Both the position numbers and the translations under genes were made by a program. A stretch of DNA of 47,981 nt from Gammaproteobacteria bacterium (GTDB lineage Bacteria; Pseudomonadota; Gammaproteobacteria; Pseudomonadales; Pseudohongiellaceae). Below, piece by piece: positions 12,650 to 35,106 of this stretch (position 1 is the first letter of the stretch; every line of letters starts with the position of its first letter). The notes under the pieces are model-generated. The model had not been told where the DNA came from. It searched no databases and saw only the letters and a program-made list of their open reading frames with translations. The stretch is taken from positions 1-47,981 of the forward strand of contig JAUHWU010000009.1 of the NCBI GenBank assembly GCA_030427065.1. Direction: 5' to 3'.

Positions 12650-13219
12650 ATGGCTAGGACAGATTCATGCGTAACGATTCACATGGTCGCAAGCCTCGAT
12701 GGCTTCATCGCTCGAAGCGACGGGCGTGTCGACTGGCTTGAAACCTCGGACGAATTCACAGATGGGGAAACCTTAGACCCGGATTTCGTCGCAGCTTTCC
12801 TAGAGACTATCGATTGCTATGTGATGGGGTCGCGAACTTACGAAACTGCCTTGGGTTTTGAAGCTAAAGGATTTGGGTGGGTGTACGGAGACAAGCCCAC
12901 ATTCGTACTCACCAGCCGCAACTTGCCTCGAACTCGGGATAACGTCGAGTTTTACTCAGGAGATCTCTCGAAGTTGGTGAATGAGCGTCTGCGGTCAAAG
13001 TTCCGTAGTATTTGGTTTGCCGGGGGCGGCGCCATTGCAGGCGAATGCCTTCGTCTCGGACTTGCTGACGAAATTCGATATTCGATCCTCCCGATCTTGA
13101 TTTGCGAAGGAATCTCTTTTTTTGAGAAGCTCGACAGAGATGTGGCTCTTCACCTGAAGGGGGTCAAAGGTTATAAAAGCGGAATGGTAGAGCTTCATTA
13201 TGAGGTAATTCATCCGTAA
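12650..13219 (+). CDS. Dihydrofolate-reductase-like (RibD C-terminal family) protein
   Basis: Last cassette-like gene, 189 aa from the ATG at 12650; AAGGAG at 12639-12644 is spaced five bases from it, so the GTG at 12647 is less likely. MVASLDGFIARSDGRVDWLE is the family N-terminus, MGSRTYETALGF and FAGGGAIAGECLRLGLADEI are the NADPH-binding positions of the DHFR/RibD_C fold. Members are stand-alone reductases of mostly unknown substrate. Its base composition is less AT-rich than its left neighbours. No attC follows it, so it is either the truncated last cassette or a neighbour outside the array. Confidence 0.88.
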   Translation: MARTDSCVTIHMVASLDGFIARSDGRVDWLETSDEFTDGETLDPDFVAAFLETIDCYVMGSRTYETALGFEAKGFGWVYGDKPTFVLTSRNLPRTRDNVEFYSGDLSKLVNERLRSKFRSIWFAGGGAIAGECLRLGLADEIRYSILPILICEGISFFEKLDRDVALHLKGVKGYKSGMVELHYEVIHP

Positions 13220-26491: not shown

Positions 26492-27217
26492 ATGACGGAT
26501 AATGGATCCTTATCCGGACATGCTTTACCGTTACACGTGAAAAAAGTACTATGGCCCACGATGACTAATCTCTCCGTTACCCGTGCTGTTAGCGCCCGTA
26601 TTCCTACCGAGTACGGCGTGTTCGAGCTTGTCTATTACACCAATACTTTCGACGACAAGGATCATCTTGCCTTTTATATGGGCGACCTTGGTTCAGGAGA
26701 GGATATTCTGGTTCGTCTGCACTCGGAATGTCTAACCGGTGATATCTTCGGTTCTCTGCGCTGCGACTGCGGCGAGCAGCTGGACCGCTCTTTGCAGGTT
26801 ATCGCGGAGGAAGGACGCGGTGTAGTGGTCTATCTGCGGCAGGAAGGGCGCGGGATTGGACTACTTCAAAAGATTCGTGCCTACAATCTTCAAGATGCCG
26901 GCCATGATACGGTAGATGCCAACCTGCTACTTGGACACCAGGCAGATGAGCGCGACTATACGGTAGCTGTCCGCATTCTGGAAAATCTTGGCATTAAATC
27001 GGTTCGCCTGATCACCAATAACCCCCTCAAAATCAATGCCCTTGAGGAGCAGGGGATCAAAGTTAACAAGCGCGTCGAGCTTGCTAATTTCATCAATCCT
27101 GAAAATTCCCAGTATCTAACAACCAAGGCTCAACGTATGAATCATCTGTTGAGCCTGACGAATATTCCCCCTTCAATACCCAAAAGTGACTCCCATAAAT
27201 CTCAATCAACAGATTGA
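26492..27217 (+). CDS. ribA: GTP cyclohydrolase II
   Basis: 241 aa, stand-alone RibA without a RibB domain. It opens GTP to 2,5-diamino-6-ribosylamino-4(3H)-pyrimidinone 5'-phosphate, formate and pyrophosphate. Zinc cysteines C80, C91 and C93 lie in LHSECLTGDIFGSLRCDCG; the active-site YLRQEGRGIGL (Tyr114) and KIRAYNLQD (Arg129) are intact, as is ADERDY and LITNNPLK. The first ~23 residues are extra compared with E. coli RibA, so M24 (26561) could be the true start. It overlaps the following reductase gene and seems to belong to a dedicated cluster rather than the housekeeping rib operon. Confidence 0.95.
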   Translation: MTDNGSLSGHALPLHVKKVLWPTMTNLSVTRAVSARIPTEYGVFELVYYTNTFDDKDHLAFYMGDLGSGEDILVRLHSECLTGDIFGSLRCDCGEQLDRSLQVIAEEGRGVVVYLRQEGRGIGLLQKIRAYNLQDAGHDTVDANLLLGHQADERDYTVAVRILENLGIKSVRLITNNPLKINALEEQGIKVNKRVELANFINPENSQYLTTKAQRMNHLLSLTNIPPSIPKSDSHKSQSTD

Positions 27218-27977
27218 AAAGTGGCTGCATTCGCGTGCCGCTACTTTTCAAGCTGAAAACCGACCTTTCATAACACTCTCTTACGCGCAAAGCTGGGACG
27301 GCAGTATTACTACCCGCAGTGGAGAAGTCATAAACTTTAGTGGCGAGCAGGCCATGAGTTTGACACATCAATTGCGCAGTCTTCATGACGGGATTCTGGT
27401 TGGCATCGGCACTGTGCTCAGTGATGATCCACAGCTCACAGTCAGGCAGTGGAGTGGTTTAAACCCGCAACCTATTGTGCTGGACAGTCAATTACGCACG
27501 CCAAAGTCCGCCAGGATTTGCCATCACCCCGACAAGCAATGCTGGATTTTAACGATCAAGCCCGAATCCGCTTCACTGGGAGAGCAGGTCAATATCTTGC
27601 CCATGCAAAGTAGCGAGGCTGACCCTCAGCGAGTACCTCTGTTGGCCGCCATGAGCCTGCTGCGTGAGCGAGGCATTAAAACCCTGATGGTGGAGGGGGG
27701 AGCCACCGTCATAACCGCATTCCTGAAGGCGCGTCTGGCTGATGCACTGGTGTTAACCGTCGCCCCCCGGCTTGTGGGCGGCTATAAGGCGGTAGGGAGT
27801 TTGCAAAGTGAAGGCTGCGATGATCAGTTACGTATTGACCCGCTCCATTGTGCCTCTGCAGGCAAGGACCTTATCGTGTGGGGAGATTTGCAATACGGCG
27901 AGCACGATGGGCAGGATGGGCAGGATGGTCAGGATGGTCAGGATGGTCAGGATGGTCAGGATGGAGTAGACCAATGA
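27186..27977 (+). CDS. RibD C-terminal-type pyrimidine reductase, stand-alone
   Basis: 263 aa, GTG start overlapping ribA by 32 bp. Only the reductase half of RibD is present: RPFITLSYAQSWDGSITTRS, LRSLHDGILVGIGTVLSDDP, LMVEGGATVITAFLKARLAD and VAPRLVGG. No deaminase domain with its zinc motif precedes it, so it may reduce the diaminopyrimidine directly, as fungal and archaeal RIB7/RED enzymes do, or act on a different ribosyl substrate. The C-terminus ends in six Gly-Gln-Asp-type repeats (DGQ) encoded by a 9-bp tandem repeat. NADPH dependence is inferred from the family. Confidence 0.9.
   Translation: MTPINLNQQIEKWLHSRAATFQAENRPFITLSYAQSWDGSITTRSGEVINFSGEQAMSLTHQLRSLHDGILVGIGTVLSDDPQLTVRQWSGLNPQPIVLDSQLRTPKSARICHHPDKQCWILTIKPESASLGEQVNILPMQSSEADPQRVPLLAAMSLLRERGIKTLMVEGGATVITAFLKARLADALVLTVAPRLVGGYKAVGSLQSEGCDDQLRIDPLHCASAGKDLIVWGDLQYGEHDGQDGQDGQDGQDGQDGQDGVDQ
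27906..27965 (+). repeat. Six 9-bp tandem repeats (GATGGNCAG) at the 3' end of the reductase gene
   Basis: Six units at 27906-27959 plus a partial seventh encode repeated Asp-Gly-Gln in frame. Unit number can change without a frameshift. Confidence 0.92.
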
Positions 27978-29014
27978 ATACGCGTCAGCTGTGGTTCGTC
28001 AAACCTCATCAGGTCGAAATACGCGAACAACAATTACCTGTGCTGCAGAGTGATCAAGTGCTGGTGAGAAACCTTTATTCGGCGATCAGTGCCGGCACCG
28101 AGATGCTGGTGTACCGCGGTCAGCTGCCCGCTCACATGGCGCTTGATGAAACTCTGTCAGCGCTTGGACAGCAAAAAGTCAGCTATCCCTTGCCCTATGG
28201 TTATGCCTGTGTCGGTCTGATAGAGGCGGCGGGTGATGGCGTGGCCCCTGATTGCGTTGGCAAAACAGTTTTCTCGTTTCAGCCCCATGCCAGCCATCAC
28301 GTTTGCACTATGGACGCCGTTATTCCGGTGCCGAATGGAATAGATCCAATGGAGGCCGTGTTTCTGGCCAATATGGAGACGGCCGTGAATCTGGTGCAGG
28401 ATGGTAATCCCCGAGTCGGCGAACGGGTAGTGGTGCTGGGACAGGGTATCGTTGGGCTACTGACTTCCAGTGTCCTGGCTCAATTTCCTCTCGCAGGTCT
28501 TTACGGTGTGGATAGCATCGCCGACCGACGCAGGTTATCAGGGTGCTGTGGTGTGCAAGCGGCGTTTGATCCTGATTCGGATAGCGACATCAAGATGCTG
28601 CAGGAGAAGCTGAAAGTTGATGAATCCGGTGGCGGTGCGGATGTGGTCTTTGAGTTGAGCGGTTCTCCGGCGGCGTTGAATATGGCGGTAGATTTATGTG
28701 CTTACTCCGGTCGCATCGTTGTGGGTAGCTGGTACGGCACCAGGAGCGCCGAAATTAATCTGGGTGAAAGATTTCATCGAAATCGCATGACTATCGTTAG
28801 CAGTCAGGTCAGCACGATTGCCCCTGAGCTTGCTGGCCGCTGGGATAAAGCCAGGCGCTTCTCGGTTGCATGGGACATGATAAAAACATGCAGTCCGGCG
28901 CAGTTTATCAGTCATGCTCTGCCATTTGAAAAAGCCGGTGAAGCTTACCAGTTGCTGGACGAATCACCCCGCGACGCTACGCAGATAATTTTTGATTATC
29001 AGAACGAGGGTTGA
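27974..29014 (+). CDS. MDR-superfamily dehydrogenase lacking catalytic zinc ligands
   Basis: 346 aa from ATG 27974, four bases before the reductase stop; an open frame upstream to 27848 is only the tandem repeat in another phase. GroES-like N-terminal domain with LYSAISAGTEMLVYRG and YPLPYGYACVG: the positions normally Cys and His (catalytic zinc in classical alcohol dehydrogenases) are Ser and Tyr, and no four-Cys structural zinc lobe is present. Rossmann domain VVVLGQGIVGLLTSSVLAQF, then AIFELSGSP-like VVFELSGSPAAL. The pattern recalls the BchC-like (cd08255) subgroup. Substrate unknown; context suggests a pterin or pyrimidine intermediate or its sugar. Confidence 0.87.
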   Translation: MNTRQLWFVKPHQVEIREQQLPVLQSDQVLVRNLYSAISAGTEMLVYRGQLPAHMALDETLSALGQQKVSYPLPYGYACVGLIEAAGDGVAPDCVGKTVFSFQPHASHHVCTMDAVIPVPNGIDPMEAVFLANMETAVNLVQDGNPRVGERVVVLGQGIVGLLTSSVLAQFPLAGLYGVDSIADRRRLSGCCGVQAAFDPDSDSDIKMLQEKLKVDESGGGADVVFELSGSPAALNMAVDLCAYSGRIVVGSWYGTRSAEINLGERFHRNRMTIVSSQVSTIAPELAGRWDKARRFSVAWDMIKTCSPAQFISHALPFEKAGEAYQLLDESPRDATQIIFDYQNEG

Positions 29015-29069
29015 TGCCTGCCATTTTTATGTCGGTTTTAGAACAAATGTTTTTTTAGAGGAATAATAG

Positions 29070-29447
29070 ATGTATACAGTTTCAGTAAGTCGTGAGCTGA
29101 TTGCCAGGCACTATCTTGTGGGGGGTGATTGGGGTGCGGAGAATGATCCCCATTCCCATCCTTACAAGATCGAAGTTCGACTTGAGGCCGCTGATCTGGA
29201 TCAGCACGGCTATCTTGTGGATATCGTAAAAATCGAGGAAGAACTTCAGGCCGTAGTCGATTATTTTGGTGAGAGCATGTTAAATGATCTTCCTGAATTC
29301 GAGGGGCTTAACCCCAGCATTGAACATTTCAGTCGTATTGTTTGTGGCAAGTTGCTGGACGGTATTCAGCCGCCGGGTTCGGGCCGCTTCAGCGTCAGGA
29401 TCTGGGAGAATGATACTTGCTGGGCCGCTTACGTCACGGATTATTAA
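29070..29447 (+). CDS. 6-pyruvoyl-tetrahydropterin synthase/QueD homologue with Glu at the catalytic Cys position
   Basis: 125 aa, AGAGGAA six bases before the ATG. Zinc histidines are H14 (RHYL), H28 and H30 (PHSHPYKIEV), the PTPS/QueD triad. QueD and PTPS have a catalytic Cys four residues before the first His of HxH; here that residue is E24, as in the PTPS-III enzymes that make 6-hydroxymethyl-dihydropterin. DLDQHGYLVDIVKIEEEL and LNPSIEHFSRIV complete the T-fold. The partner gene is GTP cyclohydrolase II rather than I, so the substrate may be non-standard. Last gene of the plus-strand arm. Confidence 0.9.
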   Translation: MYTVSVSRELIARHYLVGGDWGAENDPHSHPYKIEVRLEAADLDQHGYLVDIVKIEEELQAVVDYFGESMLNDLPEFEGLNPSIEHFSRIVCGKLLDGIQPPGSGRFSVRIWENDTCWAAYVTDY

Positions 29448-29470
29448 GCTGTCTGACAGGACCAGGGGTG

Positions 29471-30502
29471 TTATAAGGCTTTTGCGTTGGCGCCATTATT
29501 GGCAGACTGCAGCCGGGGCAAGAGCGCTGCACCAGCCAATAGAATGATTACGTCACGCAGACGCATCAACACGATCAGGGCAGCGGCTGCCGGTAATGGC
29601 AATCCCAGAGCCTGAAAAGCCCAGAACAGTCCCGCCTCAACACTGCCTACCCCGCCGGGTAGAGGCAGCAGAAAGGCCAGGCGCACCACCGTAAACAGAA
29701 AGACAAATGTTGGCAGATCTGTCGGTATACCGAGCAGACTGAGCAGGAACCAGAATTCTCCTATCATTGCGGCCCAGGCCAACAATGACAGGGCCAGGGC
29801 GACGCCAAGTGCAGGGCGTTGTGTTGTCATTACCCGCTGCAGGGATTTATTAAGTTGCGTGAGATGGGTATCCAGATTGCGCAGACGATCATGGTCATGC
29901 CAGCGTCGCGTCAAACGTTTTATCCACGTCTTAATTCGCGACGGCTGGCTTATAACAAACCAGCCAAATAGCCCCATCAGACCAATCAATCCCACTAGAA
30001 CGAATGCGATGGGGTACCAGTCGACAACGATTGCAGAGCGGGTCGTCAGCAGGGTAAGCACGGCCAATAAAAGCACAGCAAAATTAATCCACAGCTCATA
30101 GAATCGATCCAGTCCAAGCGCGAGAAATGCATTGTGGATCGGCACAGTATAATGTCGCCATAACCAGTAGATCTGCAGCGGTTCGCCACCAAACTGGGGG
30201 CCGGGTGTCACAAAACTGATGACCTGGCCTGCCTGGCGTATCTGCAGAAGCTGCAGGAAACTGCAAGGCAGTGCCATGGCGCGAGTCAGCACCAGCCAGC
30301 GTCCGGTAAGCAGCGCAATGACGAGCAGGTTGAGGGAAGTCCAAATTATCCACTGGGAAAACTGCAGGTTTGTAATCGTCTGCATAAGTTCGGTAAATGG
30401 CAATCTGGATACTATCCAGGCTGCCAGTGCGAAGGCGATCAACCAGGTCACGTAGCGGGACATGAAACGGGCAAAGCGAAAATAGTCAGTCGGTGATTTC
30501 AA
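29471..30502 (-). CDS. Flippase-like / LPG-synthase transmembrane domain protein (UPF0104)
   Basis: 343 aa with about eight membrane helices. RQAGQVISFVTPGPQFGGEP and RLAFLLPLPGGVGSVEAGLF are the hallmark repeats of the lysylphosphatidylglycerol-synthase transmembrane (YbhN/AglD-like) family, which is linked to moving or making lipid-linked molecules. It overlaps the CDP-alcohol transferase stop/start by four bases (ATGA), so the two are translated together. The gene converges with the PTPS gene, 23 bp apart. Confidence 0.9.
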   Translation of the reverse strand: MKSPTDYFRFARFMSRYVTWLIAFALAAWIVSRLPFTELMQTITNLQFSQWIIWTSLNLLVIALLTGRWLVLTRAMALPCSFLQLLQIRQAGQVISFVTPGPQFGGEPLQIYWLWRHYTVPIHNAFLALGLDRFYELWINFAVLLLAVLTLLTTRSAIVVDWYPIAFVLVGLIGLMGLFGWFVISQPSRIKTWIKRLTRRWHDHDRLRNLDTHLTQLNKSLQRVMTTQRPALGVALALSLLAWAAMIGEFWFLLSLLGIPTDLPTFVFLFTVVRLAFLLPLPGGVGSVEAGLFWAFQALGLPLPAAAALIVLMRLRDVIILLAGAALLPRLQSANNGANAKAL

Positions 30503-31677
30503 GCGCCATCGTACCGGTTAAGCCAGTGATCATCCTCTGTCCACAGGCTGAAGCGTCCGGTACCCAGAAGCAGTAACCAGATCACACAGCAAAACAGAAT
30601 ATAGTCCACCGGCAGTAAGGGGGTGCTCATGTAGTACCAGCCAAGCAGGCCAACCAGGATGAGACTGAAGTAGCGCCCGGCAATTCCCAGCAAGAGCATG
30701 GCCGATGCCACCATAAAACCACCTGTCATGACATTGTTCATCCAGGTCATGCTGTTACCCGTTAGCGTTGGAAGTCCGGATTGAAACAGGGATGACGCCA
30801 GCGTTATAACTATCACCAGACGCAAGCCTGGTTGCAAAAAAGTCAGACTGAATAGAGTTAGACGCTGAAAGGTCTTGTCTACGACCTCTGTCTCTCGGTT
30901 GATACGCCCACTGACAATCAGCCAGTCGATTAAAAATCCGATTAGCGCAGGCAGCATGAAGGCAAAGCCGGCGAGCATGGTCAGTGGCGGATGAAACAGT
31001 GGCCACAGCGCTACCACCAGAAAGCCCATCTGAAACCCTGCCCAGGTGCGGCGGTGCAATGCTGGCGGCAGGGGATAGATGGGCAAGCCTCGCCAGTTGC
31101 GCCACATTATACCGGCGTGAAAAAAATAATAGGCAATGCCAAACAGCAGGTAACTCCAATGAACCTGGCCATAAGCGAATGCAAGCAGTGAGGCTATTGC
31201 CAGACCGAGTGCATCGGCGACCGTATCAAGTTGATTTCCAAGCAGACTGCTTTGCCCGGTCCGGCGTGCTACGTAGCCGTCGACTCTATCCAGTACGGCG
31301 GCAAAAAAATAGAGCATGCCAGGTAGCCACGCCAACACCGCCCCTTCCGGCCAGGGCTGAAACAGGAAGCCGGCGACGGAAGCGATTAAGCCAGAGCGTA
31401 ACAAGGTAAGCTTGTTGGCCCAGCCAAGGGTTTTATATAGTGGCGCCTCGGGCGCTTCGTGATTAATAGGCAAGCGCCGCCTGGTCTGATAACAGATAAA
31501 GGCCCAGACCAACGCGGCCTGAATAAACCATTGCATTGCCGCTTGCCAATGCCAGCTCAGGCCCAGCAAACCACAACCGCCCGCCAGTGCAACAATACCC
31601 AGACAGCCAAGGCGAGCGGATTCGCGCTTGAGCGATTCATAAACCGCTTGTTCCCCAGGATTCAAAGTGTCTGACAT
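30499..31677 (-). CDS. CDP-alcohol phosphatidyltransferase family protein
   Basis: 392 aa, polytopic. The full catalytic signature D-x2-D-G-x2-A-R-x8-G-x3-D-x3-D is present in DRVDGYVARRTGQSSLLGNQ followed by LDTVADALG. Such enzymes move a phospho-alcohol from CDP-diacylglycerol or another CDP-alcohol to an acceptor. The protein is about twice the usual length because of an extra C-terminal membrane region (about residues 230-385, nine or so helices in total), so it may be a fusion or a lipid-modifying variant. First gene of the minus arm; its upstream region is now occupied by the RAYT element. Confidence 0.9.
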   Translation of the reverse strand: MSDTLNPGEQAVYESLKRESARLGCLGIVALAGGCGLLGLSWHWQAAMQWFIQAALVWAFICYQTRRRLPINHEAPEAPLYKTLGWANKLTLLRSGLIASVAGFLFQPWPEGAVLAWLPGMLYFFAAVLDRVDGYVARRTGQSSLLGNQLDTVADALGLAIASLLAFAYGQVHWSYLLFGIAYYFFHAGIMWRNWRGLPIYPLPPALHRRTWAGFQMGFLVVALWPLFHPPLTMLAGFAFMLPALIGFLIDWLIVSGRINRETEVVDKTFQRLTLFSLTFLQPGLRLVIVITLASSLFQSGLPTLTGNSMTWMNNVMTGGFMVASAMLLLGIAGRYFSLILVGLLGWYYMSTPLLPVDYILFCCVIWLLLLGTGRFSLWTEDDHWLNRYDGA

Positions 31678-31699
31678 TTGCCAACAATACCAAACCAGA

Positions 31700-31721
31700 G
31701 GGGACGGAGGGATTTATTTTT
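31700..31721 (+). repeat. Left inverted half-REP of the RAYT element
   Basis: 22 bp, exact reverse complement of 32491-32512 and identical to the left half of the palindrome at 35116. Confidence 0.92.
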
Positions 31722-31800
31722 GATCATTTTTACGCATTTGTAAAAAAGTCATCTAGACTTCCAGTATCTGCCTCTCACAAAAACCGCATAAGGAAATGCC

Positions 31801-32520
31801 ATGCCCCGTCGAGCCAGGATGTATATACCGGGTTACCCCTACCATATTGTTCAACGCGGTAATAACCGGCAGGCCTGTTTCTTCGAAGTAGAAAACTACC
31901 GTGTGTTTTTAAAATACATGAGTGAAGTAATGCCGCGTTATGGGAACAGTCTGCATGCCTATTGTCTGATGACAAACCATGTGCATTTATTGATTACGCC
32001 TGAATGTGTAGATAGTATCTCCAACTTCATGAAAGTTGTGTGTAGCCGTTACGCCCAATACATCAATAAAAAATATACCCGCACAGGATCGCTCTGGGAA
32101 GGACGTCATAAGGCCAGTGTCATTGATTCTGAAAGCTATTTACTGAAATGCTATCGTTATATTGAACTTAATCCTGTGACCGCTGATATGGTAAAGCGAC
32201 CCGAAGGATATGCATGGAGCAGTAATCATTACAACGCTTGGGGAGGTCAGAATAGTATGATCTCGGGGCATGAATCCTATTTGGCTCTTGGCCAGAATCA
32301 GGCTCAGAGGTGTTTGAACTACCGAAAACTTTTTGATGAAGCCCTGTCTACTGAAGATTGCCATGCGATTGGTAAGGCATTGTACTTTTCAATGCCGCTG
32401 GGATCGGAGGAATTTATGAAACAGATTGAGAATCAAACAGGTCGCATGATAGGTTACGCGCATCAAGGCCGGCCTTATGCTAAATTGGTTAAAAATAAAT
32501 CCCTCCGTCCCCTTAAATGA
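31801..32520 (+). CDS. REP-associated tyrosine transposase (RAYT, Y1/HUH family)
   Basis: 239 aa. PRRARMYIPGYPYHIVQRGN is the family N-terminus; the HUH metal motif is H-V-H in CLMTNHVHLLITP, followed by SLWEGRHKASVIDSESYLLK and the catalytic tyrosine in CYRYIELNPVTADMV. RAYTs are single-copy, single-strand transposases related to IS200/IS605 that bind and spread REP palindromes. The last residues KSLRPLK and the stop are encoded by the right half-REP and the following bases, so the gene is inseparable from the element. Its TGA overlaps the glycosyltransferase ATG (ATGA). Confidence 0.95.
   Translation: MPRRARMYIPGYPYHIVQRGNNRQACFFEVENYRVFLKYMSEVMPRYGNSLHAYCLMTNHVHLLITPECVDSISNFMKVVCSRYAQYINKKYTRTGSLWEGRHKASVIDSESYLLKCYRYIELNPVTADMVKRPEGYAWSSNHYNAWGGQNSMISGHESYLALGQNQAQRCLNYRKLFDEALSTEDCHAIGKALYFSMPLGSEEFMKQIENQTGRMIGYAHQGRPYAKLVKNKSLRPLK
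32491..32512 (-). repeat. Right inverted half-REP of the RAYT element
   Basis: Exact reverse complement of 31700-31721. It covers the place where the ribosome-binding site of the glycosyltransferase at 32517 would be. Confidence 0.92.
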
Positions 32521-33554
32521 TCTATTTTGCGTACCCTGGTGATCTCGACACCCCAACGGGTGGTTATCATTATGATCGCCGTCTTATCGGTGAGCTTCGC
32601 GGTATGGGGGTGAGTGTGGAAACGATTTCTTTACCGGACTGCACTTGTATGCCGGATCAGCATGCTCTGGCACGCGTGCAGCAGCTATTCGCAGCTATAC
32701 CGGATCAGGCGGTGGTTGTTATTGATGGACTGGCCTTCGGCGTTCTGGATCAGCTGGCAATGGCAGAGGCAAAACGACTGCGACTGGTTGCCCTGTGTCA
32801 TCATCCGCTGGCGCTGGAAACAGGGCTTGATGCACAAACTCGTCAGGCATTACTGGTTTCAGAACGACGAGCCTTGAGCTGTGCTTGCGCTACTGTCGTG
32901 ACCAGCGAGCATACTCGTCAGATCCTTATGGATCAGTATGACGTCCCCATTGACAGTATCACTGTGGCGCTTCCCGGCACAGATCAGGTAAGCTTTGCGC
33001 GCTGCAAAGGCAACCCGATTCGGCTACTCACCGTGGCTTCACTGACCCCGCGCAAGGCCCATGACATTCTCATTGATGCGCTTGAGCCGCTCATATCACT
33101 GCCCTGGCAAGCACGCTTTGTAGGAGGCAAGGATTTCGACCCTGACTGGGCTGCAAGCCTGGAGGAACGGGTAAATACTTTGGGCTTGTCGCAGCGTATT
33201 GAATTTGCTGGCAAGGTGGCCGATACAGGCCTTGAATATCAGCAGGCCGATGTGTTTGTCCTGCCCTCGCGCTTCGAGGGCTATGGCATGGTATTCGCTG
33301 AAGCGCTGGCGGCGGGACTACCGGTGATCGCAGCACGATCCGGCGCCGTACCAGACGTCGTGCCTGAAACGGCAGGGATGATGGTATCCCCGAACGATAC
33401 CAGACAATTAAGCGAGGCATTAATGCAGATAATCAGCAATGAACCATTACGCCGGCGACTCCAGGGCGGTGCCAGGAAGGCCGCCGCGACATTGCCGGCC
33501 TGGTCAGATACTGCAGCGATTGTTGCCGGCAAACTCGATGAGATAAATCACTGA
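32517..33554 (+). CDS. Family-4-type glycosyltransferase
   Basis: 345 aa, GT-B fold. N-terminal PGDLDTPTGGYHYDRRLIGE, the nucleotide-sugar domain with IRLLTVASLTPRKAHDILID, and the E-x7-E motif in RFEGYGMVFAEALAAGLPVI mark a retaining GT4-type enzyme acting at the cytoplasmic face. The ATG overlaps the RAYT stop and there is no Shine-Dalgarno (CCCCTTAA precedes it), so translation may now depend on RAYT coupling. Its stop overlaps the methyltransferase start by one base. The cluster context suggests it glycosylates the pterin/pyrimidine-derived or lipid-linked product. Confidence 0.92.
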   Translation: MIYFAYPGDLDTPTGGYHYDRRLIGELRGMGVSVETISLPDCTCMPDQHALARVQQLFAAIPDQAVVVIDGLAFGVLDQLAMAEAKRLRLVALCHHPLALETGLDAQTRQALLVSERRALSCACATVVTSEHTRQILMDQYDVPIDSITVALPGTDQVSFARCKGNPIRLLTVASLTPRKAHDILIDALEPLISLPWQARFVGGKDFDPDWAASLEERVNTLGLSQRIEFAGKVADTGLEYQQADVFVLPSRFEGYGMVFAEALAAGLPVIAARSGAVPDVVPETAGMMVSPNDTRQLSEALMQIISNEPLRRRLQGGARKAAATLPAWSDTAAIVAGKLDEINH

Positions 33555-34375
33555 TGACTGGTTTCAGCATCGACTGGCTGGATCTGCGCGAGGCAGCAGA
33601 CCGGTGCGCACGCGACGATAAATTACTTGAACAAGCCAGGTATTGGTTGTCTGAAAGTTTTGCCCCGGGAACAGAGAAGACCGTGGTGGACCTTGGTGCG
33701 GGCACAGGTTCCACGCTGCGTGCTTTCGCCCATGCTTCAAATACTGATCAACAGGCGCTGTGCTGGCGACTGCTGGATCAGGATGCGGCACTGCTTGCGC
33801 AGGCCCGTCTGCGGCATGGACATTTACAGCGACTGCAAACTTATGAGCTCGATCTTGCAGAAATTTCCGCGTTGCCGCTGGCAGACGCACAGCTCATTAC
33901 TGCCTCGGCGTTATTTGACCTGGTGTCCGCCGATTTTGTCGACACATTGGCTCTCGCGTTGCAGAGCCAACAAGATCCGCCTGCATTATACGCGGCCTTA
34001 AATTACGATGGCACGACTACCTGGACGCCTGCGCATCCTCTTGATGAGGTGGTACTTGATGCGTTCAATCGCGATCAGCAGAGAGATAAAGGTTTTGGTA
34101 TGGCGTTGGGGCCAGAGGCAGGCTCCTATCTGGAGCGGGTGTTCAGTGGATCAGGTTTCAAGGTGTTTACTGCGAATAGCCCCTGGGTGCTGGATCAACT
34201 CGACTGCAAATTGGTAGATGCCCTGATTAGCGGGATAGGTGAGGCCGTCGCTCAGGATTCGACACTGGATACGACTTCGCTTCAGGACTGGATCCAGTTC
34301 AGAAAGGCTCATTTGTTCACCGGTACTTGCGTGGTTGGGCATACTGACCTGTTGGCACTGCCAGACAGGGATTAA
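33554..34375 (+). CDS. Class I SAM-dependent methyltransferase
   Basis: 273 aa, overlapping the glycosyltransferase stop by one base (TGATG), so almost certainly the same operon. SAM motif I is VVDLGAGTGSTLRAF (about residues 39-53), with WRLLDQDAALLAQARLR as motif II region and LITASALFDLVSADFVDTLA as the post-motif helix. The C-terminal part (YAALNYDGTTTW) is enzyme-specific and I cannot read the substrate. It completes the plus-strand arm after the RAYT insertion. Confidence 0.9.
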   Translation: MTGFSIDWLDLREAADRCARDDKLLEQARYWLSESFAPGTEKTVVDLGAGTGSTLRAFAHASNTDQQALCWRLLDQDAALLAQARLRHGHLQRLQTYELDLAEISALPLADAQLITASALFDLVSADFVDTLALALQSQQDPPALYAALNYDGTTTWTPAHPLDEVVLDAFNRDQQRDKGFGMALGPEAGSYLERVFSGSGFKVFTANSPWVLDQLDCKLVDALISGIGEAVAQDSTLDTTSLQDWIQFRKAHLFTGTCVVGHTDLLALPDRD

Positions 34376-34497: not shown

Positions 34498-35106
34498 ATG
34501 CAGAAATATTATTCAAGTCGATTCCAATCATACGCAGCCCTGCTGCTTCCTGTAATGTTGTTATCAGGAATCACCCAGGCACAGCCTGTGGATTGGGAAA
34601 TAGATCCCGAACATTTCTCGATAGTCTTTGAAGCGAGCCACGTTGGTTACCAGAATCAGATGGGGCTGTTTCTCGAGGGCGCCGGGAGCTTTCGCTATGA
34701 TCCCGCTACACGAGAACTGAGTGCCGGCCATGTCGAGATACAGGCTGACAGTATCTTCACCAATCACGATGACCGGGACAATCACCTTACCGGCAGGGAT
34801 TTTCTGAATGCAAGGCGTAATCCGCTCATTGTCTTCGACGCGACGGATTTTGCCCCCGGTGGTGACGATGCAGGTGCAACACTGACTGGCAACCTGACGC
34901 TGCTTGGTGAAACCCGCCCGGTGGTGCTGGATCTCATTATCAACAAACGGGCGGACTATCCTTTCGGGCATGGTCGCGAGACACTGGGAATATCTGCCAA
35001 TACCATAATTACCCGCAGTGACTGGGGCATGGACTACGGCGTGGCCGATAATCTGGTTGGCGATGAGGTAACACTGCGTTTCGAGTTTGAAGCAATAAGG
35101 CAGTAA
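34498..35106 (+). CDS. Exported YceI-family protein
   Basis: 202 aa with AGGAGG six bases before the ATG and a signal peptide (YAALLLPVMLLSGITQAQ). WEIDPEHFSIVFEASHVGYQ, SGAGHVEIQADSI-like segment, HLTGRDFLNARRNPLIVFDA and GNLTLLGETRPVVLDL are the YceI lipocalin-like barrel that binds polyisoprenoids or similar lipids in the periplasm. It differs from classic YceI only in details. A REP follows 9 bp after the stop. A weak hairpin (ACTATTC/GAATAGT, 34427-34451) lies in the upstream gap. Confidence 0.93.
   Translation: MQKYYSSRFQSYAALLLPVMLLSGITQAQPVDWEIDPEHFSIVFEASHVGYQNQMGLFLEGAGSFRYDPATRELSAGHVEIQADSIFTNHDDRDNHLTGRDFLNARRNPLIVFDATDFAPGGDDAGATLTGNLTLLGETRPVVLDLIINKRADYPFGHGRETLGISANTIITRSDWGMDYGVADNLVGDEVTLRFEFEAIRQ

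Follow-up and report, generated by a model that had tools for sequence, protein, structure and literature searches.

What does a bacterium make with a GTP cyclohydrolase II, a RibD-type reductase, a dehydrogenase and a relative of pterin enzymes encoded beside a flippase, a phosphatidyltransferase, a glycosyltransferase and a methyltransferase? The question is raised by a DNA stretch of 47,981 nucleotides (JAUHWU010000009.1, here called the window) from a Gammaproteobacteria bacterium of the family Pseudohongiellaceae, whose 3.42-Mb genome is 99% complete and includes the window as its contig 215. An earlier note, made from the letters of the window alone, proposed that these eight genes turn a GTP-derived pyrimidine or pterin into a glycosylated, lipid-associated product. 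Sequence comparison shows the eight families to be one conserved gene set, distinct from the host's other genes for riboflavin, folate and queuosine synthesis. The nature of the product is answered here more cautiously, through the enzyme families, their spread and the rival explanations.

Organization of the locus

The eight genes lie where the earlier note placed them and belong to the families it named, seven according to Pfam profiles and the methyltransferase according to its predicted fold. On the plus strand, a ribA paralogue for GTP cyclohydrolase II (26492..27217, 241 aa; PF00925 228 bits; TIGR00505 261 bits, above cut-off) precedes a RibD_C reductase without a deaminase domain (27186..27977, 263 aa; PF01872 144 bits), a zinc-less medium-chain dehydrogenase (MDR; 27974..29014, 346 aa; PF00107, ADH_zinc_N, 44 bits) and a 6-pyruvoyltetrahydropterin synthase (PTPS) family protein of the ExxxHSH type (29070..29447, 125 aa; PF01242 84.6 bits against a cut-off of 22.4). 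The minus strand encodes a flippase-like membrane protein (29471..30502, 343 aa; PF03706, LPG_synthase_TM, 112 bits; TIGR00374 102 bits, above cut-off) and a CDP-alcohol phosphatidyltransferase (CDP-OH; 30499..31677, 392 aa; PF01066 59 bits) with an intact active-site motif. Two further plus-strand genes encode a GT4 glycosyltransferase (32517..33554, 345 aa; PF13692, Glyco_trans_1_4, 105 bits) and a class I S-adenosylmethionine (SAM) methyltransferase (MT; 33554..34375, 273 aa); the latter reaches 23 bits in Pfam, below the cut-off of 30, and is recognized by its predicted fold and by a homologue fused to GT4 in locus L125.

The description of these genes as packed with overlaps is accurate for four junctions. 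ribA and the RibD_C gene overlap by 32 bp, provided that GTG is the start codon, and the RibD_C and MDR genes by 4 bp, counting from the MDR ATG at 27974; the flippase and CDP-OH genes share 4 bp, and the GT4 and MT genes share 1 bp. It does not hold between MDR and PTPS or between PTPS and flippase, where gaps of 55 bp and 23 bp occur. Profile scans of the MDR used the frame from 27968, which is two residues longer than the product of the ATG at 27974.

A conserved gene set

Related loci keep the same company of families. One genome per species was scanned, and 220 stretches encode PTPS relatives; the best 80 of these by PTPS similarity, largely metagenome-assembled, form the related set (L004-L083). 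Their neighbourhoods were examined by tblastn and with profile hidden Markov models built from related-set loci, a partner being counted when its match lay no farther than 8 kb from the PTPS gene and scored more than 30 bits. Near-copies, such as L028 and L029 of one genome, are counted separately, and six loci bear odd-looking labels (L007, L019, L023 and L025, given as Opitutaceae, Opitutales or Verrucomicrobiia; L048, Klebsiella; L064, Rhodoferax). Flanks of 8 kb or more on each side of the PTPS gene define a well-flanked subset of 39 loci, which leaves out 41 shorter-flanked ones. In this subset MDR, RibD_C and GT4 are each present in all 39, CDP-OH in 36, the flippase in 35, ribA in 33 and MT in 32; all seven partners stand together in 25. 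For the full set of 80, in which short contigs are common, the counts are MDR 79, RibD_C 71, GT4 68, flippase 63, CDP-OH 63, ribA 55 and MT 50.

The co-occurrence check suggested by the earlier note thus finds the families conserved together, and it matches the partner families in none of 12 control loci around QueD-like PTPS genes of the host and its relatives, some of which are short (3.2-19.9 kb). All five control PTPS inspected contain CxxxHGH. In an unselected sample of 274 class genomes, four, the host included, encode the PTPS at E<=1e-20; the three other carriers have MDR adjacent in every case, ribA and GT4 in two each, and RibD_C, MT (weak, 45 bits) and CDP-OH (weak, 23 bits) in one each. 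Gene order varies among related loci, with the GT4-MT pair upstream or downstream of the rest and on either strand, so that the families stay grouped in a changing layout. Two natural gene fusions occur: RibA with RibD_C in L025, one of the odd-labelled loci, and GT4 with MT in L125.

Within the host family, the block is accessory: it is absent from all five genus siblings and present in four of six other members. A CDP-OH of the window type occurs in exactly the five of 12 family genomes that have the cluster PTPS (Fisher p 0.0013, ignoring relatedness). Mirror-tree comparison gives distance correlations of r 0.59-0.84, above 200 shuffles, for pairs without GT4, and only r 0.16-0.30 for GT4 against ribA, RibD_C, MDR, PTPS and flippase, the GT4-MDR pair not exceeding shuffles. 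Divergent GT4 proteins in methanotroph loci are perhaps the cause of this low agreement, and shared species history alone could explain the correlations.

According to the earlier note, this set is not needed for riboflavin, folate or queuosine synthesis, and the host genome bears this out. GTP_cyclohydro2 matches number three (the window gene, a 206-aa frame and a 384-aa frame of RibBA size), a 378-aa RibD shares a contig with the 384-aa frame, and the host also carries two FolE and one QueD. Because other copies of RibD, GTP cyclohydrolase II, FolE and QueD are present, the three pathways are independent of the set, and their supply was rejected as the role of the cluster. As separate observations, the genus siblings G399 and G401 have no PF01242 match at E<=0.001 and may be without QueD, and a photolyase search returned two genes.

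Features of the encoded enzymes

The sequence marks of RibA are those of a canonical GTP cyclohydrolase II, namely three zinc Cys and a Tyr equivalent to Tyr105 of E. coli, a residue with a functional role in this enzyme. The three Cys occur in 57 of 57 aligned rows and the Tyr in 55, which are all 55 related-set rows; the two rows with Met at this position are both from Streptomyces. We take Met here to go with formamidopyrimidine (FAPy) formation, as in S. coelicolor SCO6655, a GTP cyclohydrolase II paralogue, and the creatininase family to be the archaeal type of FAPy deformylase. Met-type RibA and creatininase occur together in both Streptomyces loci described below. Creatininase matches are absent from the 80 related-set loci and from six genomes of the host's order; elsewhere such genes lie inside the cluster of G280 and, by genome search, in G016, G191 and G262.

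RibD_C finds its best solved relatives in PDB 6p8c (94 bits) and 2azn (93 bits), and its top structures include 2,5-diamino-6-ribosylamino-pyrimidinone phosphate reductase. It is not a bifunctional RibD, as no deaminase domain was found and TIGR00326 gives 106 bits against a cut-off of 156. The 3' end of its gene (27906-27959) contains an in-frame 9-bp tandem repeat encoding (DGQ)n, where the length might vary. A third RibD_C-type match in the host, a weak RibD_C/DHFR-like protein (36.5 bits), lies at 12671-13186 of the window.

Zinc-dependent MDR alcohol dehydrogenases bind their catalytic zinc through Cys and His (GHE). The zinc-less assignment made for the window MDR stands: GYA replaces GHE, ten aligned members have GYA or GYL, and the SAISAGTE segment is free of Cys in all ten. 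Fold comparison of the model (predicted local distance difference test score, pLDDT, 89.8) ranks an E. coli dehydrogenase of unassigned specificity (Z 34.8) and gutB (Z 34.0) first; sorbitol and idonate dehydrogenases come next (Z 33-34), and threonine and other alcohol dehydrogenases score only slightly lower. The near folds at Z 32-34 include xylitol and arabinitol dehydrogenases as well as those for sorbitol and idonate, and the model is compatible with polyol oxidation.

QueD has a catalytic Asp-His pair, and the window PTPS is not of the QueD/PTPS-I kind. It reads GAENDPHSH and FGESMLN where the host's own QueD reads KCARLHGH and LDHYYLN, scores 43 bits with TIGR03367 against a cut-off of 89, and keeps three His and Glu113 while losing the QueD Cys and Asp-His. 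The C-terminal Glu113, whose equivalent presumably binds the pterin ring, is invariant in 17 aligned PTPS and aligns with a Glu of QueD. In this protein, called a Glu-type PTPS in the earlier note, a Glu stands at QueD's Cys position, four residues ahead of the first His; the motif is therefore not that of PTPS-III, the folate type, whose ExxHGH (PMC5041015) has a Glu-to-His spacing of three.

The PTPS-IV signature FGPAQ is also absent from the window PTPS; it occurs in the six aligned rows that come from such gene clusters in Streptomyces and distant Pseudomonadota (Streptomyces, G070, G280, G262 and G191). Cluster PTPS are accordingly of two types: ExxxHxH in the related set and haloarchaea, and FGPAQ in those Streptomyces and distant Pseudomonadota clusters. 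Neither type has the Cys and Asp-His of QueD. In a tree, cluster PTPS separate from five QueD (100/100), although the inner branches are long and the placement of the FGPAQ type is not relied on. A PHROGs search gave only weak QueD-like and tRNA-methyltransferase matches.

CDP-alcohol phosphatidyltransferases are marked by the motif DxxDGxxAR(x)8GxxxDxxxD, which is intact in the window protein, in five distant members and in 58 of 61 related-set members. Best solved relatives of the GT4 include phosphatidylinositol mannoside and inositol-phosphate glycosyltransferases, at low scores of 50-59 bits. The MT model (pLDDT 94.7) is folded like class I SAM methyltransferases (best Z 20.4, root-mean-square deviation 3.3, 239 residues aligned) and matches many natural-product and small-molecule enzymes.

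Spread to distant lineages

Among plasmid records searched by tblastn, 12 have a PTPS match: ten are haloarchaeal (39-45% identity) and two are from Streptomyces (23-29%). The analysis covered nine of the haloarchaeal loci, leaving out H10, whose strain is that of H9. All nine have MDR and an MT homologue (24-49 bits) next to the PTPS. Eight have a GT4, recognized by profile in five and by annotation in three, and six a CDP-OH gene; a GTP cyclohydrolase IIa/III is annotated in three (Pfam-checked in L084) and a creatininase occurs in two. In these three, CDP-OH immediately precedes the gene for the GTP cyclohydrolase, 25 bp away, and belongs to the run of genes that contains MDR and PTPS. On pNG700 of H. 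marismortui, genes for MDR, GT4, MT and CDP-OH surround the PTPS match. In both records of this species the match is split in two with no gene annotated, so this copy may be broken or misread; in H. sinaiiensis, the same four families surround an annotated PTPS gene. Some haloarchaeal clusters also contain a Gfo/Idh/MocA oxidoreductase (L084:4643-6382; L086:4919-6889), fused in H. marismortui to an aldo-keto reductase, which might replace RibD_C.

Both Streptomyces plasmid loci carry MDR, PTPS, GT4, MT, flippase, CDP-OH, creatininase and RibA, and one carries RibD_C; their PTPS are 24 and 30% identical to that of the window. Relatives of RibD_C matched 60 plasmid records. Across Pseudomonadota at large, 46 of 398 sampled genomes have some PTPS match, and among 20 distant loci opened the block is found in five (L125, L126, L130, L135 and L136). 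The second PTPS of G411 (C22, locus L186) has none of the partner families nearby.

Proposed pathway and alternatives

The steps that the earlier note read into the set, namely GTP opening, sugar reduction, glycosylation, methylation and a phospholipid-type transfer, stand at the level of family membership only. With slightly more belief than doubt, the set is read here as one pathway, whose pterin product bears a sugar and a methyl group and is either coupled to a phospholipid or moved across the membrane. Following the established chemistry of their families, RibA would open GTP to 2,5-diamino-6-ribosylamino-pyrimidinone 5'-phosphate and RibD_C would convert the ribosyl to a ribityl group. 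The MDR, with its polyol-dehydrogenase-like fold, may then oxidise the ribityl C2' to a ketone, and the PTPS-like protein, which has a pterin pocket and zinc-type His but not the QueD Cys and Asp-His, may guide ring closure with the 5-amino group. The result would be a compound like 7,8-dihydroneopterin 3'-phosphate, formed without GTP cyclohydrolase I, with reduction and then oxidation standing in for the Amadori step of that enzyme. GT4 would add a sugar and MT a methyl group, in an order that the families do not fix; CDP-OH would join the product to a phosphatidyl group, and the flippase would turn the lipid-linked product outward. In many relatives, a sulfatase-fold enzyme resembling lipoteichoic acid (LTA) synthase may hand the phospho-headgroup to an acceptor in the envelope.

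A bolder version, conceivable although doubtful, holds that one pathway, common to two bacterial phyla and haloarchaea, leads to a pterin glycophospholipid that is redox-active or absorbs light. This compound would be anchored in the membrane by a phosphatidyl group and made without GTP cyclohydrolase I, through ribityl C2' re-oxidation and a repurposed PTPS.

Several points weigh against a single pathway of this kind. Reducing and then re-oxidising the same sugar is a roundabout route, and a zinc-less MDR is atypical as a polyol oxidase. The zinc site differs between the PTPS types, the FGPAQ type having Ala in place of the third His. Among the 39 well-flanked loci, 14 are without one or more of the seven partners. 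CDP-OH is unmatched in L085, L089 and L092, and both CDP-OH and flippase are unmatched in L126, L130, L135 and L136. The block is absent from 15 of the 20 more distant PTPS loci, a few having one stray partner match; seven of these belong to one family of small genomes, and all 15 are taken as other PTPS subfamilies. Despite their creatininase genes, G280, G016 and G191 have Tyr-type RibA, and G262 has only a degenerate copy, so the link between Met-type RibA and a deformylase holds only for Streptomyces. Finally, no product is known for the set.

The gaps in the lipid genes suit an arrangement of two modules, in which RibA, RibD_C, MDR, PTPS, GT4 and MT make a soluble pterin-glycoside while CDP-OH, flippase and the sulfatase-like protein make an envelope phospholipid and do not act on the pterin. 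Besides the seven blocks without lipid genes just named, the methanotroph loci L053 and L043 have the flippase/CDP-OH pair about 4 and 5 kb off the PTPS, and OpgG and/or OpgH families adjoin nine clusters. This arrangement is nevertheless rather unlikely: the three haloarchaeal loci keep CDP-OH in one run with GTP cyclohydrolase, MDR and PTPS, the Streptomyces and G070 clusters also contain the lipid genes, and presence or absence of CDP-OH tracks the cluster in all 12 family genomes. The patchy accessory distribution, with none in five genus siblings and plasmid carriage in haloarchaea and Streptomyces, would also fit a soluble secreted secondary metabolite, such as a pterin or pyrimidine pigment, signal or antibiotic of toxoflavin-like logic, with flippase and CDP-OH serving export or self-protection. 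The likeness of the MT fold to many natural-product enzymes points the same way, but beyond the eight no family recurs as widely (smaller families are partly identified, and a rarer exporter or regulator is possible), and the idea is judged improbable. That ordinary riboflavin, folate or queuosine paralogues are chance neighbours of unrelated membrane genes deserves hardly any credence; every protein does come from a common family, but conservation in distant lineages, the QueD control, the fusions and the separate housekeeping copies all speak against it.

If the single pathway is correct, a large PTPS subfamily, with 561 sequences in one published node, would acquire a product and a function, and there would be a second pterin route bypassing GTP cyclohydrolase I. 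The pathway would possibly also yield a lipid-linked pterin, of which no example is known to us. Cultured carriers of the set include Methylomonas (for example sp. LW13, locus L053), Saccharospirillum, Streptomyces and Haloarcula.

Relation to known systems

Early riboflavin and F420 synthesis uses RibA or ArfA/ArfB and then an ArfC-type reductase. The cluster has the same first enzymes, and the best solved matches of RibD_C are such reductases; unlike riboflavin synthesis, the conserved set is without a deaminase domain, lumazine synthase and riboflavin synthase. Phosphohalopterin and sulfohalopterin come from Haloarcula marismortui, and to our knowledge no biosynthetic genes are known for archaeal charged pterins. 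These compounds are glycosylated or charged, and H. marismortui carries a partial cluster; a link between cluster and halopterins is a guess. Solfapterin is another archaeal charged pterin, cited in work on cyanobacterial pterin glycosides (PMC3546692). The glycosides described in the parts of that work considered here are cyanopterin, with the enzyme PgtA, and biopterin glucoside, with BGluT (PMC3546692). They share with the cluster a pterin and a glycosyltransferase, but in those parts GTP cyclohydrolase I heads pterin synthesis and no RibD_C, MDR or CDP-alcohol enzyme is named (PMC3546692).

The earlier note could not tell whether the system had been described, and in part it has. A paper on the whole set or on its product did not turn up in searches of an open-access library, outside which most subscription papers lie. 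A 2017 neighbourhood network built with AGeNNT places 561 sequences of PTPS-IV in cluster-node 62, whose neighbours include PF00925, under the name GTP cyclohydrolase I / FolE2, and PF01872, the RibD C-terminal domain; its passages on PTPS-IV give no product (PMC5445326). No proven role was found for this PTPS subfamily. The likeness lies in both neighbour families and in the FGPAQ motif of the Streptomyces, G070, G280, G262 and G191 clusters. The text on the node, however, names no dehydrogenase, GT4, methyltransferase, CDP-alcohol or flippase genes, and the window PTPS is of the ExxxHSH type. The only solved structure matched by the window PTPS sequence is S. coelicolor SCO6650 (PDB 3d7j, E 1.6e-7), which is of the FGPAQ type, unlike the window protein; two other Streptomyces carry the cluster gene set on plasmids. 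Those plasmid clusters differ from the related set in their Met-type RibA and creatininase gene.

Neighbouring and accessory genes

The inventory of eight overlooked a plus-strand gene for a repetitive extragenic palindrome (REP)-associated tyrosine (Y1) transposase at 31801..32520 (PF01797 57 bits; NF047646 75.7 bits, just below its cut-off of 80), which overlaps the GT4 gene by 4 bp. By tblastn over the 80 loci, it lies between CDP-OH and GT4 only in L004, L005, L006 and L047; it was rejected as a member of the system and is taken as an insertion. A YceI-like protein downstream of MT (34498..35106, plus strand; PF04264 128 bits) is a possible accessory, its family occurring in 18 of 80 related loci.

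After the eight, the most recurrent family is the membrane sulfatase-fold, LTA-synthase-like protein (L058:4641-6257), found in 29 of 80 related loci, in 20 of the 39 well-flanked ones and in L126 (354 bits); YceI follows, and all others reach at most 10 of 80. The sulfatase-fold protein is a probable extra member of the cluster. In whole genomes, a single-protein query, which misses distant copies, finds it in six of 13 with the block and in none of 13 without. The match in G000, G403 and G070 is a 28-34% paralogue on a different contig from the cluster, and so may not be the same gene. The H. marismortui cluster has a weak sulfatase-like match (20 bits, below cut-off).

A link of the cluster to periplasmic glucans is possible. 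OpgH and OpgG (families 10 and 13) adjoin the cluster in L032, L035, L037, L038, L044, L054, L056, L057 and L070, as assigned by profiles in L057 and L032 and by clustering in the remaining loci. In G000 and G403, the sulfatase paralogue adjoins a GH17-GT2-like protein, as judged by eye.

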